From Pseudomonadota bacterium (GTDB lineage Bacteria > Pseudomonadota > Alphaproteobacteria > Sphingomonadales > Sphingomonadaceae): 64,000 bases of DNA. The translations under genes were made by a program, and so were the position numbers. How positions within the stretch are numbered: the stretch's first letter is position 1; each line of letters opens with the position of its first letter. A model generated the notes under the pieces. That model saw nothing but the letters and a program-made list of their open reading frames with translations. It was not told the origin of the DNA and made no database searches. Shown here piece after piece: positions 337-9,569 of the stretch. The DNA is taken from contig JAJZTH010000012.1 in the NCBI GenBank assembly GCA_021849075.1, forward strand, positions 26,741 to 90,740, written 5' to 3'.

Positions 337-1203
337 CTACGCCATGGGATCGAGCGTTCCGAGCCAGGCGACCAAAACGAGGATCGCAACGGCGGCGCTG
401 CTTTCCGCCAGCAGCGACAGGCGCAGATGGGCGATGGCGCGTTGCGGCGTCACGCCCGCTTCCAACGCCGGGGTCAGCCACCAGCGGTTCGCCGCCGCCA
501 GTCCCAGCATCAGCCCGAACAACAGCAGTTTGGCGCCGAGCAGCAGGCCGTAACGGCTCTGCAGCAAGGCCGGCAATTGGGCTAACCCAACGATCATCAG
601 CGCGTTGACGGCGCCGGTGATGACGAGGGTGGCGACTATCAGCGTTCCTATCAGCGAAAAACGCGCCAGCATGGTCGCTACCGGCGCTGTATCTGCTCCT
701 GGTCGCAACCGGACGACGGTGTATAGCAGAACCGCCAGCGCGCCGATCCAGCCCGCCGCTGCCCAGATATGCGCAACATCGGCGATGCGGTGGAGCGATC
801 CTGCCGTTTCTTCGGTTGCGCCGGCATGGCCGGTCCAGGCGAGCGTTCCGGCGGCCAGCGCGGCGGGGACAAGCGCCCATTTGCGCCCATGCGGCAGGGC
901 CGTTGCGATGATCGTACTTAGAAGAGCTGCGCCGCGCACCGCCAACACAGACCCGATCGGCGTCATCGTCAGCAATATCCCGATCGTAGGCCAGTCGGGG
1001 GCCGTGATCGGCGTGCCGGTCATGGTCGCTGCGCTTGCCAGCAGCCACAGCGCCGACAAAGCGATGCCACCAGCCGCCAGCCATGCGATCACGCTCCTGC
1101 GCCCCGCCATGCCCATGACCCACCAGAAAAGTGGCAGGCCCATGAGCAGAGCAAGGTCGATCATCAGCGCGAAACGCGCGCCGATCAGCGCCCCCTCGGT
1201 CAT
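337..1203 (-). CDS. copD: CopD-family copper resistance membrane protein
   Basis: Multi-TM protein MTEGALIGARFALMIDLALLMGLPLFWW..., adjacent to copC; start trimmed from the ORF at 1266. Confidence 0.85.
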   Translation of the reverse strand: MTEGALIGARFALMIDLALLMGLPLFWWVMGMAGRRSVIAWLAAGGIALSALWLLASAATMTGTPITAPDWPTIGILLTMTPIGSVLAVRGAALLSTIIATALPHGRKWALVPAALAAGTLAWTGHAGATEETAGSLHRIADVAHIWAAAGWIGALAVLLYTVVRLRPGADTAPVATMLARFSLIGTLIVATLVITGAVNALMIVGLAQLPALLQSRYGLLLGAKLLLFGLMLGLAAANRWWLTPALEAGVTPQRAIAHLRLSLLAESSAAVAILVLVAWLGTLDPMA

Positions 1204-1207
1204 CCGC

Positions 1208-1582
1208 TTACTTGACCGTGAAGCTGTAGCCGCCTTCCATCTTGTGCTGGTCTGCGCCGACCACATGCCATTTCAGGTCATAGGTGCCGGCGGGAAGCGC
1301 GCGGGGGAAGGTCAGGGTCATGGTCTTGCCATCAACAGCGGTCTTAAAACCCTTGATCGGCATCGGATCATGATTGGCCATGCCCGGCATGCCGGTCATC
1401 GTCAGGTCCGCGCCACTCAAAGGCGCGAGAAAGGTTTCGGAGAAGGTCAGCGTCATCTTCGTCGGCTTGGCGATGGTCGCGTTGGCGGCCGGAGTGGACG
1501 AAACCAGCTTGGTGTGGGCGCTCGCAACGCCGGGCAGGGTCAGCGCCAAGGCGGCAGCGGCGATCAGGAACTTACGGGTCAT
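1208..1582 (-). CDS. copC: CopC-domain periplasmic copper-binding protein
   Basis: Signal peptide then AHTKLVSSTPAANATIAKPTKMTLTFSE...; CopC family. Confidence 0.93.
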   Translation of the reverse strand: MTRKFLIAAAALALTLPGVASAHTKLVSSTPAANATIAKPTKMTLTFSETFLAPLSGADLTMTGMPGMANHDPMPIKGFKTAVDGKTMTLTFPRALPAGTYDLKWHVVGADQHKMEGGYSFTVK

Positions 1583-1726
1583 GGCACTGTCTCCAACAAG
1601 GGGTGTTAGGGGCATTTACGCATGGACTTGCTCCACCCCTCGACCCATGCGCATAATTTTTCCGCCTGATGCCAAGGGGTGGGCGCTTCGCGCGCGTATG
1701 CGGTCATGAGGATGGAGAATGACGTG

Positions 1727-1987
1727 ATGACCGATCTGGACCGAATGCTGGGCGCGGTGCGGGCGATGCCCACCGATGCGCGGCTGGAAATGATGGACGA
1801 TGCCGTGATGGGCGGCGTTGCCAGGAAGCGCGAACAGGTGACGGCGCGGCGCAGCCTGATGCTGGCCGGCCTGTTAGCGATCGGCATCGGCTGGGCAGGC
1901 AGCATCGTGCCGGCCGCGCCTGCACAGGCATCGTCCTTGCCGATCGGCATGTCGGACTATGCGCCCTCGCGCCTGCTTGGCCAATGA
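1727..1987 (+). CDS. Small single-TM protein, candidate CnrY-like anti-sigma
   Basis: Short cytosolic N-terminus, one TM (SLMLAGLLAIGIGWAGSIV), overlaps the sensor gene by ATGA, upstream of an ECF sigma. Confidence 0.6.
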   Translation: MTDLDRMLGAVRAMPTDARLEMMDDAVMGGVARKREQVTARRSLMLAGLLAIGIGWAGSIVPAAPAQASSLPIGMSDYAPSRLLGQ

Positions 1988-2421
1988 CCGCGCGCCGCTA
2001 TCTTCTGGTCGCGCTGGTCGCTTTTGCCGCCTCGCTTGCAGCGGTATTGGTTGCGCGCTTCTGGCTCGTCCCCGAACCGCAGGTCGAAAGTGAAGTCCAC
2101 ACGCTGCTGCATCAACGGTTGACGCTCGATGCGGCGCAGGAAAAGCGAATTCATGAACTGGAGGCGGGCTTCGCGCAGCGACGTGCGGCGCTGGAGGCCG
2201 AGATGCGCGCCGACAATCAGCGACTGGCCGACGCTATTGCCGCCGAACATGGCTATGGTCCCAAGGTCGGCGAAGCGGTCGACCGGTCGCATCATGTCAT
2301 GGGGCAGCTTCAGAAGGAAACGCTCCAGCATATCTTTGCGATGCGTGCCGTCCTGCGCGCCGATCAGGCGGCGCAATTCGATGCTGCCGTCGTCAAGGCG
2401 CTGACTCAGCCGGGCCAGTGA
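1984..2421 (+). CDS. Periplasmic heavy-metal sensor (Spy/CpxP/CnrX-like)
   Basis: N-terminal TM, helical LTLDAAQEKRIHELEAGFAQRRAALEAEMRADNQRLADAI... Confidence 0.8.
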   Translation: MTARRYLLVALVAFAASLAAVLVARFWLVPEPQVESEVHTLLHQRLTLDAAQEKRIHELEAGFAQRRAALEAEMRADNQRLADAIAAEHGYGPKVGEAVDRSHHVMGQLQKETLQHIFAMRAVLRADQAAQFDAAVVKALTQPGQ

Positions 2422-2975
2422 GCGAAGCCGAAACCGACGATAGCGCACTCGCTGCCCGCGCATTGGCCGGGCAGCAATCGGCTTATGGCGCGCTGATGCG
2501 GCGGCATCGCGAAGCCATCTATCGCATCGTGCGCGGCCATGTCGGCGACGGGCATGAAGCGCTCGATATCACGCAGGAAACATTCATCGCGGCCTTCGCT
2601 GCGCTGGCTCGCTATGATGGCATGCGCCCTTTCCGCGTCTGGATCGCGCGCATTGCGCTCAATAAATGCCGTGACTGGGCGCGCCGCCGCACCGTTCGGC
2701 GCTTCTTTGCCTTCGCCAGACCCGTTGAGGATGCGGCCGAGGTTGCCGATCCTGACTCTACGCCGGAAGAAGCACTGCATTCGCAACGGGAACTGGCCCG
2801 GATCAACGCCGCGATTGCATCCTTGCCCGCCAATCTCAAAGATGTGCTGCTGCTCCGCACGATCGAGCAGATGAGCCAGGCGGAGGTGGCGATGGTGCTG
2901 GGCGTCACCGAAAAGGCGGTCGAAACCCGCCTTTACCGCGCCCGCGCCAAACTCACGGAAATTTTGAGGGATTAG
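2418..2975 (+). CDS. ECF sigma-70 factor
   Basis: GTG start; sigma region 2 (DITQETFIAAFAAL) and region 4 (LLRTIEQMSQAEVAMVLGVTEKAVETRLYRARAKL). Confidence 0.93.
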   Translation: MSEAETDDSALAARALAGQQSAYGALMRRHREAIYRIVRGHVGDGHEALDITQETFIAAFAALARYDGMRPFRVWIARIALNKCRDWARRRTVRRFFAFARPVEDAAEVADPDSTPEEALHSQRELARINAAIASLPANLKDVLLLRTIEQMSQAEVAMVLGVTEKAVETRLYRARAKLTEILRD

Positions 2976-2999
2976 GCGGTGGCCCGCGTATGAAGGGGC

Positions 3000-4739
3000 A
3001 TGACCAACCTGTTCCTTGATCGCCGCACTCTGTTCAAGAGCGCCGCCGCCCTGACTCTGGCCGGCGCTTTCCCTGCTTGGGCGCGCAGCGGTACTGGTGG
3101 CCTGTACCCGGCGCCCGGCGTCCTTTCGGGGGACAGCATAGCCCTGACTGTTGGAGAAAGTCATTTCGGCACCGGCGGGCGTTCTGCCCATGCCATCACC
3201 ATCAACGGCACTGTTCCCGCGCCGCTCATTCGTCTGAAGGAAGGGCAGAATGTGCGGCTGTCCGTCACCAACAGTCTGAAGGAGGATACGTCGATCCACT
3301 GGCATGGGCTGATTCTACCCTTTCAGATGGATGGCGTGCCGGGCGTCAGCTTCCCGGGCATCCGCCCCGGTGAAACCTTCACTTACGAATTTCCGGTTCG
3401 CCAGTCAGGCACCTATTGGTATCACAGCCATTCGGGCATGCAGGAGGCGATGGGTCATTATGGTCCGATCGTGATCGACCCCGCCGGTTCCGACCCGATC
3501 CAGTCCGACCGCGAGCATGTGATCGTGCTGGCTGACTGGTCGCCAGTCCATCCCCATATGCTGCTCAAGCGCCTCAAGCAGATGGGCGGTTATTACAACA
3601 TGCAGCGCCAGACGTTGGCCGGCCTGGTCGCGGGCAAGGATCAGGGCGTCAAGGACCGGATGGAATGGGGCGCGATGCGCATGGACCCCACCGACATTTC
3701 GGATGTCACCGGTTCGACCTACAGTTTCCTTGTGAATGGCCATGGCACGCCGGAAAACTGGACGGGCCTGTTCGCGCCTGGCGAGCGGGTGCGCCTGCGC
3801 ATCATCAATGCGTCGGCGATGACCAATTTCAACGTCCGCCTGCCGGGCCTGGCGATGACGGTGGTCCAGTGCGATGGCCAGCATGTCCAGCCGGTCGAAA
3901 CGGACGAATTCCAGATCGGCATAGCCGAAACCTATGATGTGATCGTCCAGCCGTCAGAAGCAAAGCCCTATGGCCTGATCGCCGAAGCGATAGACCGTTC
4001 TGGTCTGGTCCGCGCCACCCTTGCACCGCAAATCGGGATGGTCGCGCCGATCCCCGACCTGCGCCAGCGCCCGCTGCTCACCATGAAGGACATGGGCATG
4101 GATATGGCGGGCATGGATATGGGGCAGGGCGGCGTGATCGATCTTAGCCAGCCTGCCAATGAAAGCATGTCCGGCCATAGCATGAAGATGCTGGACCCCT
4201 CCGTCGCCCCCAATGTGCCGATGGGACCTGGAGTCGCCACCCTTTCCGCCATGCCGGCCGATCGCACTGCAGACCGGCCGACGGGTCTGGAGGACGTCGA
4301 TCATCGCGTCCTCACCTATGCCGACCTGCGGGCGCTCGAACCGAATGAGGACACACGCACGCCGACCCGCACGCTCGACATTCACCTGACCGCCAACATG
4401 GAACGCTATATGTGGTCTTTCGACGGGGTGAAGCTGTCGGATGGGGCGGAACGCATAGCCTTCCGCCACATGGAACGGGTGCGCGTGAACCTGATCAACG
4501 ATACGATGATGCCGCATCCCATCCATATCCACGGTCATTTTTTCCAGCTCGTGACCAGTGAAGACGTCGCCAGCAATCCGCGCAAGCATACGGTGAATGT
4601 GCTGCCCGGCGGCAAGGTCAGTTTCGATCTGACGGCCGACGCGATCGGCGACTGGGCCTTCCACTGCCACATGGTGATGCACATGCATGCCGGGATGATG
4701 CGCGTTGTGACGGTCCGTCATGAAGGAGACGCTGCATGA
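3000..4739 (+). CDS. copA: CopA-family copper resistance multicopper oxidase
   Basis: IHWHGLILPFQMDGVPGVSFPGI, HPIHIHGHFFQL, HCHMVMHMHAGMM copper ligands; Met-rich MKDMGMDMAGMDMG segment. Confidence 0.97.
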   Translation: MTNLFLDRRTLFKSAAALTLAGAFPAWARSGTGGLYPAPGVLSGDSIALTVGESHFGTGGRSAHAITINGTVPAPLIRLKEGQNVRLSVTNSLKEDTSIHWHGLILPFQMDGVPGVSFPGIRPGETFTYEFPVRQSGTYWYHSHSGMQEAMGHYGPIVIDPAGSDPIQSDREHVIVLADWSPVHPHMLLKRLKQMGGYYNMQRQTLAGLVAGKDQGVKDRMEWGAMRMDPTDISDVTGSTYSFLVNGHGTPENWTGLFAPGERVRLRIINASAMTNFNVRLPGLAMTVVQCDGQHVQPVETDEFQIGIAETYDVIVQPSEAKPYGLIAEAIDRSGLVRATLAPQIGMVAPIPDLRQRPLLTMKDMGMDMAGMDMGQGGVIDLSQPANESMSGHSMKMLDPSVAPNVPMGPGVATLSAMPADRTADRPTGLEDVDHRVLTYADLRALEPNEDTRTPTRTLDIHLTANMERYMWSFDGVKLSDGAERIAFRHMERVRVNLINDTMMPHPIHIHGHFFQLVTSEDVASNPRKHTVNVLPGGKVSFDLTADAIGDWAFHCHMVMHMHAGMMRVVTVRHEGDAA

Positions 4740-5662
4740 CGCGCCTGGTCCTCGCCGCGCTGCTGCTCGCCGGAAGCGCCTTGCCTGCGCAGGCGCAGAC
4801 CATGGACCATAGTCAGATGGATCATGGCGCGCATCAGATGCCGCTGGCGGATGACGCAGCAGTTGCGCAGGAGCCTGCCAATCCGCATGCAGGGCATGGC
4901 GCTCCCGCGGTCGACGCAGCAATTCCCCAAGGCGCGGCCCCGCCCGTGCCGACCGATTATGCCGCCGAAGCCTTTTATCCGCCCGACGTCATGGCCCGCT
5001 CCCGCGCCGCCATGATCAAGGAGAGCGGCGGCATGACCTTTTCCCAGCTGATGATCGACCGGCTGGAATATCGTGCGCAAAAGGGCGGCGATGGCTATCA
5101 TTGGGAAGGCGAAGGCTGGATCGGCGGCGACATTAATCGCCTCGCCATCAAGTCGGAAGGCGAGGGCGAAGTCGGCGGCCGCCTTGAAAGCGCCGAATTG
5201 CAGGCGCTCTACAGTCGCGCGATCGATCCCTGGTGGAATATCGTCGCCGGCGTCCGTCAGGATTTTCGCCCCCAGCCCCAGCGCACTTATGCGACAGTCG
5301 GCATAGAGGGGCTGGCCCCCTATTGGTTCGAAGTGGAGGCACAGGCTTTCCTGTCCGACAAGGGCGACGCCCATTTGCGCGTTGAAGGCACATATGATCA
5401 GCGGATCACCCAGCATCTGATCCTGCAACCGGCCGCTGAAGTGAATTTCGCGGCGCAGGATGTGCCCGACATCGGCGTCGGGTCTGGCCTGTCCAACGTC
5501 GAACTGGGCCTGCGCCTACGCTACGAAATCGTGCATGAATTCGCGCCCTATATCGGCGTCAATTGGGAACGCAGCTTTGGCGATACCGCGCGCTACGCCC
5601 GCGCCGTCGGGGATCAGGCTTCGGCCACCAGTCTGGTCATGGGCATTCGCTTCTGGTTCTGA
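4736..5662 (+). CDS. copB: Copper resistance protein B (outer membrane)
   Basis: Met/His-rich N-terminus (MDHSQMDHGAHQM) and CopB domain ending in VMGIRFWF; overlaps copA stop. Confidence 0.95.
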   Translation: MTRLVLAALLLAGSALPAQAQTMDHSQMDHGAHQMPLADDAAVAQEPANPHAGHGAPAVDAAIPQGAAPPVPTDYAAEAFYPPDVMARSRAAMIKESGGMTFSQLMIDRLEYRAQKGGDGYHWEGEGWIGGDINRLAIKSEGEGEVGGRLESAELQALYSRAIDPWWNIVAGVRQDFRPQPQRTYATVGIEGLAPYWFEVEAQAFLSDKGDAHLRVEGTYDQRITQHLILQPAAEVNFAAQDVPDIGVGSGLSNVELGLRLRYEIVHEFAPYIGVNWERSFGDTARYARAVGDQASATSLVMGIRFWF

Positions 5663-5886
5663 CGCTGGCCGCCGGCAGCATCCCCGCTGAAATTATTATC
5701 GCCTTCAGGACGCTACGGCACGCCGCCATGTCGCAGCATCCCGCTCCAAATCCTGCCTCTTCCGGCTATTCCTGCCCCTAGGAGCGGGCGAAGAAGGCGA
5801 TTATGCATCCTGCATCCGGGCGGGATTCGCGCAGCGAATATCATGCGGGATCACGAAGATATAATGGTGAAGGAGTGCGCGTTTCC

Positions 5887-6825
5887 ATGTCTTTGCTTGA
5901 CCGTTTCAAGGATCGCCTCGTTCTTCCGGCCATCGCGTCTCCCATGTTCATCGTGTCGCAGCCCGATCTGGTGATGGCGCAATGCCGGGCCGGCGTCATC
6001 GGCGCTTTTCCTTCGCTCAATGCACGGCCGTCGGGCGTATTCGAACAATGGCTGCAACGGCTGACGATGGAACTGACGGACGATGATGCCCCCTTCGCGG
6101 TCAACCTTATCGTTCATCGGTCGAATCCGCGGCTTCAGGAGGATCTTGCGCTTTGCTGCAAATATAAGGTGCCGATCGTCATCACCTCGCTTGGCGCGCA
6201 GGTGGAGGTGAATGCGGCGATCCACAGCTATGGCGGTGTGGTGCTGCATGATGTCATCGACAATCGCTTCGCACGCAAGGCCGTGGACAAGGGTGCGGAC
6301 GGGCTGATCGCGGTGGCGGCCGGCGCGGGCGGTCATGCCGGCACCTTGTCGCCCTTTGCCCTGATCCAGGAAATTCGCGACTGGTTCAGCGGTCCGCTGG
6401 CCCTGTCGGGATCGATCGCCAATGGCGGCGCGATCCTGGCGGCGCAGGCGATGGGCGCCGATTTCGCCTATATCGGTTCGGCCTTCATCGCCACGCAGGA
6501 AGCCAATGCGGAGCCAGCCTATAAGCAGATGCTGGTGGACAGCAGCGCCAGCGACATCATCTATTCCAACCTGTTCACTGGCGTACACGGCAATTATCTG
6601 CGCGGATCGATCGAGCGGGCAGGGCTGGACCCTGACAATCTCGCCCTGTCGGACCCGACGAAGATGGATTTTGCCAGCCTGTCCGAAGACAAGAAGGCGT
6701 GGCGCGACATCTGGGGTTGCGGCCAGGGTATCGGCGCGATCGATGCGGTCGTGCCGGCGGCCGACCTGATCGCGCGGTTGAGCCAGGAATATCAGGCTGC
6801 CCGATCGCGGCTGTGCGCCATGTAG
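5887..6825 (+). CDS. Nitronate monooxygenase / 2-nitropropane dioxygenase family flavoprotein
   Basis: LPAIASPMFIVSQPDLVMAQCRAGVIGAFPSLNARP..., GAGGHAGTLSPFALIQEIR, GADFAYIGSAFIATQEA; start at MSLLDRF. Confidence 0.92.
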   Translation: MSLLDRFKDRLVLPAIASPMFIVSQPDLVMAQCRAGVIGAFPSLNARPSGVFEQWLQRLTMELTDDDAPFAVNLIVHRSNPRLQEDLALCCKYKVPIVITSLGAQVEVNAAIHSYGGVVLHDVIDNRFARKAVDKGADGLIAVAAGAGGHAGTLSPFALIQEIRDWFSGPLALSGSIANGGAILAAQAMGADFAYIGSAFIATQEANAEPAYKQMLVDSSASDIIYSNLFTGVHGNYLRGSIERAGLDPDNLALSDPTKMDFASLSEDKKAWRDIWGCGQGIGAIDAVVPAADLIARLSQEYQAARSRLCAM

Positions 6826-6873: not shown

Positions 6874-8808
<1,935 letters not shown>

Positions 8809-8816
<8 letters not shown>

Positions 8817-9483
8817 ATTTCAGGCCCATTTCTTCCAGACGCGGCCGCATATTGTAAATGTCGAGGCCCAGCTCGCCAGCGGCAAGCCGCACGCGCTTGG
8901 CTTCTTCGGCGGCTTCGCGGGCCTGCGCTTTTTCCAGCACGGAAGCCGCGTCGGCACGCGGCACGATGCACACGCCATCATCGTCGGCAATGATCACGTC
9001 GCCCGGATTGACCAGCGCATTGGCGCAGATGACGGGGATGTTGACGCTGCCCAGCGTATTCTTGACCGTACCCTGCGCGTGAACGGCTTTCGACCAGACG
9101 GGGAAATTCATCTGCGTCAGATCGCGCACGTCGCGCACGCCCGCGTCGATGATGAGGCCGCGGCAGCCGCGCGCCTGCGCCGATGTCGCGAGCAGATCGC
9201 CAAAATAGCCGTCGGTGCACGGGCTGGTGGGGGCGAGGAGGAGGATATCGCCTTCCTTCAACTGCTCGATCGCGACATGGACCATCCAGTTATCGCCGGG
9301 CGCGGCGGAAATCGTGACGGCGCTGCCGGCTATGCGGGCGCCGATATAGATTGGGCGCATATAGGGGGCGAGCAGGCCGGTGCGGCCCTGTGCTTCATGG
9401 ACCGTGGCGACGCCGCATTTGGCGAGACCGTCAATGACGCAGAGGTCCGCCCTTTCGATATTCTGGACGACGACGTTGGACAT
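8809..9483 (-). CDS. ligK: 4-carboxy-4-hydroxy-2-oxoadipate aldolase / oxaloacetate decarboxylase
   Basis: HMG/CHA aldolase (RraA-like) fold: [49 protein letters not shown]; start at MSNVVVQN. Confidence 0.95.
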
Positions 9484-9569
9484 GGAACCGTTCCTTCTCC
9501 CAAAGTAGACAGCGAAATGGACACTATGGGGGCGATGCTCAAATCCGAACTGGCGCTGGCCCATAAAAT

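Follow-up and report, generated by a model that had tools for sequence, protein, structure and literature searches.

The locus examined here raises the question of why genes resembling CnrYXH, a well-studied periplasmic metal switch acting on a sigma factor and described for nickel and cobalt, should lie among copper-resistance genes, and whether they control them. In the window (the whole stretch of 64,000 nucleotides that was analysed) three plus-strand genes, here termed Y (1727-1987, 86 amino acids), X (1984-2421, 145 amino acids) and H (2418-2975, 185 amino acids, with a GTG start), overlap by 4 bases at both the Y/X and X/H junctions, their coordinates matching exactly the three overlapping genes of the original prediction. 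They are placed between copCD, transcribed divergently on the minus strand, and copAB on the plus strand, a placement also claimed there and with which the Pfam and NCBIfam matches of all four neighbors agree. These are copC (1208-1582, minus strand; Pfam CopC, 4e-20; NCBIfam copper_CopC above its cut-off), copD (337-1203, minus strand; Pfam CopD, with NCBIfam copper_CopD above its cut-off), copA, coding for a multicopper oxidase with a twin-arginine-type leader (3000-4739, plus strand; TIGR01480, 779 bits) and constituting the single copA of the 3.67 Mb genome, and copB, coding for an outer-membrane copper resistance protein (4736-5662, plus strand; Pfam CopB, 2.7e-92). The start of copD was chosen by inspection, the open reading frame caller running it to 1266, and that of copC (MTRKFL) was set downstream of the predicted transcription start. 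No CnrCBA-type RND efflux pump linked to Y-X-H is present in the window, and the relatives have cop genes instead, as had been proposed.

Further along the window, downstream of copB, lies a gene of the nitronate monooxygenase family (5803-6825, plus strand), and genes for a LigI-like amidohydrolase, 4-oxalomesaconate tautomerase and 4-carboxy-4-hydroxy-2-oxoadipate aldolase (LigK) occupy 6874-9564 on the minus strand; the latter are part of the protocatechuate 4,5-cleavage pathway, near the cop locus. On the same contig, approximately 7-11 kb upstream of the first base of the window, we observed genes coding for a RepA-type replication initiator, a ParB-like protein and a ParA/RepA partition protein (L207:948-4751, minus strand), based on which the cop locus probably resides on a secondary replicon.

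The CnrYXH likeness had originally been deduced from gene anatomy, and sequence and structure comparisons bear it out for all three proteins. In searches of the sequences of solved structures H recovers CnrH first (6e-34; runner-up 9e-21), with sigma-70 regions 2 and 4 matched in Pfam, and X recovers CnrX first (1e-18) along with NccX, in addition to matching the Pfam Metal_resist domain (2e-16). The AlphaFold2 model of X (pLDDT 90.6) retrieves CnrX entries at Foldseek ranks 1-14, including 3epv, titled as apo- and copper-bound CnrX, and NccX at rank 15. Y, the gene at whose position is labelled 'hypothetical protein' in named relatives, has zero Pfam or NCBIfam matches. Nevertheless, a profile-profile comparison of Y (105 homologues) with CnrY (11 homologues) yielded a full-length alignment at 95% probability (E 3.6e-8), which lies so far above the column-shuffled controls (n=15, none exceeding 0.8%) that Y is very probably an anti-sigma factor, with a single transmembrane segment predicted by hydropathy at about residues 43-62 and a C-terminal tail of APSRLL. 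At the level of sequence, Y, X and H are hence confirmed as homologues of CnrY, CnrX and CnrH.

The association of these genes with copper resistance extends well beyond a single genome. X is present in 36 of 61 genomes, comprising 35 of the 37 from the same genus (this genome included) and one of 24 from other members of the order. The first 30 loci of the genus all unite X, H and copA, with copC in 29 of them; Y was detected in most of the 30 as a BLAST match and in the remainder as an open reading frame at the same place. Additional loci from sphingomonads and Caulobacteraceae mostly display the same or a similar gene arrangement. In wider samples, 384 other genomes of the class yielded 12 with a match at an E-value of 0.001 and 398 from the phylum yielded 17, several of these matches being weak. 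An orphan Y-X-H set lacking cop genes occurs on a plasmid of Sphingobium yanoikuyae A3 (7595-8923, locus L042), adjoining genes for a TonB-dependent receptor and a transposon. Conversely, Y-X-H sets of the true cnr type, accompanied by genes for an RND pump, are found outside Burkholderiaceae in Novosphingobium (L118, L119, L122) and Azomonas (L120).

Support for a tie between this switch and the cop genes comes from a shared promoter motif. The copC/Y intergenic region contains two divergent predicted promoters with the identical -35 and -10 elements, AGGGGTGG-N11-GCGTA, one directed towards Y-X-H (1675-1698, plus strand) and the other towards copC-copD (1617-1640, minus strand), and a third of the form AGGGATTA-N11-GCGTA overlaps the stop codon of H and is predicted to serve copA-copB (2967-2990, plus strand). 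The looser pattern AGGGRT-N13-GCGTA has exactly three copies in the 3.67 Mb genome, before copC, Y and copA. Since the genome also has six copies of a reversed control pattern, the telling point is the location of all three real copies rather than their number. The motif recurs at the same three places in the 30 relatives with few losses; furthermore, across 100 distinct cop loci, AGGG-N13-18-CGTA precedes Y in 92, stands in the divergent direction in 80 and occupies the H-copA junction in 85, where the coding DNA of the same loci would predict 0.01 per region. Some of the absences may reflect contig ends or differing gene order. Within 809 kb from 78 cop loci there are 194 matches to the strict motif as opposed to none for the reversed pattern, and the genes 3' of it are mostly copper genes: copA (46), Y (44) and copC (41), followed by those for Cys-rich proteins of the type labelled 'four-helix bundle copper-binding protein' (18), DUF4396 (17), DUF305 (8) and a DUF305-like membrane protein (4). 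A plasmid in a genome of the same genus has it also before a DUF411-like gene, and in Asticcacaulis, where the cop genes are rearranged, it stays with the separated copA. These predicted targets point to a copper regulon. Genus-wide, the exact motif has 243 matches versus 176 for the reversed pattern (summed table); hence, we do not trust isolated genomic matches outside copper loci.

The motif is a mark of shared control, which alone does not establish that it is read by H. Its confinement to this locus within the genome, where it precedes Y, copC and copA, and its retention in relatives support the link between the switch and the copper genes, and the same elements are recognizable in the cnr system. 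The pMOL28 promoters, AGGGGGAGTCCTTCGCGCAGCCGTA for cnrY and AGGGGAAGCATCGACCTGGTCCGTA for cnrC, share the core AGGG...CGTA, which here likewise lies before Y and before an output operon. Published start sites fall 24 and 25 bases ahead of the two genes, and the promoters depend on CnrH (PMC9045368); if this distance were carried over, transcription of copA would start almost at its ATG. The predicted starts at the present locus fall near 1608 (minus strand), 1706 (plus strand) and 2998 (plus strand). The CnrYXH system of the Cupriavidus metallidurans plasmid pMOL28, and likewise NccYXH, also has homologous proteins encoded in the same overlapping Y-X-H order. The two arrangements differ in that the output here is copAB plus the divergent copCD rather than the CnrCBA pump, in the third, divergent promoter, and in the AGGG-to-CGTA spacer, which is N16 here as against N17 in cnr. 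This last difference recurs at most sites: the spacer is 17 bases at 16 of 19 cnr-type sites (and at most sites of the cnr-type sets from Novosphingobium and Azomonas), versus 16 bases at 243 of 257 cop-type sites. The Y-X-H set is most likely a variant of the known CnrYXH switch, with copper-resistance genes as its output.

An alternative is that copAB and copCD are mainly under another copper regulator encoded elsewhere, with Y-X-H merely adding to this control or controlling itself. CopRS/CusRS systems govern the same output genes in cop/pco loci, and the CopRS genes of C. metallidurans adjoin copABCD (PMC10304878). Here, unlike at such loci, there is no such pair near the cop genes, in keeping with the earlier claim that no two-component system adjoins them; the nearest OmpR-type regulator lies about 14 kb off on the contig. 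In the genome, whose assembly is 95.6% complete, no protein exceeds the curated cut-off for CopR/CusR or for CueR. There are, to be sure, 41 response-regulator-like matches that fall short of the CopR/CusR cut-off of 279 bits, the highest of them scoring 255, and some related plasmids have CueR and response regulators near their cop genes, but the best CopR-like gene of this genome is not beside copper genes, and the sigma factor motif stands before both copA and copC, here and in relatives. We therefore regard control mainly from elsewhere as very unlikely; basal or RpoD-driven expression of the cop genes may also occur. With regard to the ECF-controlled copper regulon that was initially envisaged, the ECF control is well supported, and copper as the metal is suggested by the predicted content of the regulon.

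Taken together, we consider it likely that Y, X and H form a transmembrane sigma-factor switch of the CnrYXH type, with a small set of copper-resistance genes as its regulon. In the resting state, H would be kept at the inner membrane by Y, with X on the periplasmic side of Y; binding of a periplasmic metal by X through H39, H43, E60, H116 and M120 would alter the X-Y complex and release H, which would then bring RNA polymerase to the three AGGGRT-N13-GCGTA promoters of Y-X-H, copCD and copAB. By analogy to the Cnr system we infer the Y-H-X complex, the metal-triggered release and the autoregulation. A different mode of release may be conceived, in which Y is inactivated by proteolysis, with signal-peptidase cleavage after the transmembrane segment coming first, and not solely by a change of conformation. 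For the anti-sigma factor RsiP, cleavage by signal peptidase has been published (PMC8844934), and 80 of 105 cop-class Y proteins have an A-x-A after the transmembrane segment, which is AQA here (window 1911-1929). Against this, CnrY is described as weakened through the conformational change of CnrX (PMC7689651), the stretch in Y is alanine-rich, and A-x-A also occurs in 5 of 11 CnrY homologues, in light of which it may be there by chance; we accordingly rejected it as proof of proteolysis and hold this route to be very unlikely, on a par with a regulator elsewhere. Our preferred reading remains release through the conformational change.

The identity of the inducing metal can be approached through the sensor itself. 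The metal ligands of CnrX, namely H42, H46, E63, H119 and M123, align with H39, H43, E60, H116 and M120 of X, such that the ligand comparison put forward in the original prediction finds five of five kept. Across the homologues the five are invariant save in two remote sequences, which have Asp for the first His, one of them also Ile for the Met. The role of M123 in CnrX has been described (PMC7689651). Given the copper genes in the predicted regulon, we suggest copper as the chief inducer under physiological conditions; a crystal form of CnrX with bound copper is also known (PDB 3epv). Nevertheless, the retention of all five Ni/Co ligands could also mean that the switch senses nickel and cobalt, or divalent metals generally, with the cop genes as a co-opted multi-metal output. 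In Sphingobium ba1, copA, copB and copC were raised at 10 mM nickel, an effect for which the authors offered no explanation and knew no precedent (PMC5557971). If the ba1 cop genes are linked to Y-X-H, this result would fit a switch with the Ni/Co ligand set, and copper may consequently not be the sole inducer. However, a nickel concentration of 10 mM is very high, and it could have introduced copper or had indirect effects; ba1 in nickel also raised a two-component system of the CopS family (PMC5557971). Moreover, in the cop-class loci the motif precedes copper genes, including those for four-helix copper-binding proteins, and no nickel efflux genes, and six conserved positions set the cop-class sensors apart from those for Ni/Co. 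On balance, a general or Ni/Co-directed switch appears unlikely, and we favor copper.

These six well-conserved positions, corresponding to CnrX 49, 55, 106, 109, 131 and 135, emerged from a comparison of 105 cop-class with 11 RND-class distinct sequences, the former including two without classified neighbors. Among them is an HxxM signature (H103 and M106 in X) in place of the Glu and Ala of CnrX, and X also has a Phe at the position of Tyr135. HxxM is found in 128 of 128 cop-linked loci and in 0 of 14 RND-linked loci, which have Glu and Ala there; two cop and six RND entries not caught by the pattern were read by eye. The sensor of the orphan set in S. yanoikuyae A3 also has the cop-class HxxM. 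By helical-wheel arithmetic H103, M106, H116 and M120 lie on one face of the helix spanning residues 93-123; as H103 is about 20 angstroms along the helix from H116, HxxM would be no primary ligand but would make up a second site or contribute to a different contact. A single fully supported branch of the sensor tree separates the cop and RND classes, so that the association of HxxM with cop genes amounts to one event and not many; the idea that HxxM predicts copper output independently, in the statistical sense, was therefore rejected, the tree needing only a single change. As a tentative proposal, somewhat more doubtful than not, there might be two CnrX-type metal classes built on the same five-ligand site, in which the gain of an invariant HxxM on the ligand helix and changes at CnrX positions 49, 55, 131 and 135 would shift selectivity to copper and leave the primary site as it is, and the spacer shorter by one base would insulate the two circuits within one cell.

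Sigma factors of the ECF type have previously been connected with copper in other ways. CorE of Myxococcus xanthus similarly serves copper genes including a multicopper oxidase, but it has no anti-sigma factor and senses copper via a Cys-rich extension at its own C-terminus (PMC10141476). In contrast, H is accompanied by Y and X and has no such extension, ending just after region 4 (residues 128-179 of 185) with no Cys cluster. SigAb-AabA-AabB of Acinetobacter baumannii comprises a copper-induced ECF sigma factor and two proteins with anti-sigma activity, the model of AabA resembling CnrY bound to CnrH (PMC12153292). Unlike the system described here, it is Acinetobacter-specific, with the sigma factor gene first in the operon, and its direct regulon consists of sigAb, relA and an sRNA, copper genes being affected indirectly (PMC12153292). 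In the openly readable literature we found no previous publication that connects a switch of the CnrYXH type with cop genes, though an earlier report may exist.

If our proposal is correct, much of sphingomonad copper resistance, both chromosomal and plasmid-borne, would be run by a close relative of CnrYXH, and a small gene that routinely goes unannotated would code for its anti-sigma factor. The analysis also yields a promoter signature and a list of target genes. Furthermore, the two sensor classes with the same ligands offer a natural pair for asking how metal selectivity arises, and the switch may explain the induction of copA, copB and copC by nickel in Sphingobium ba1.
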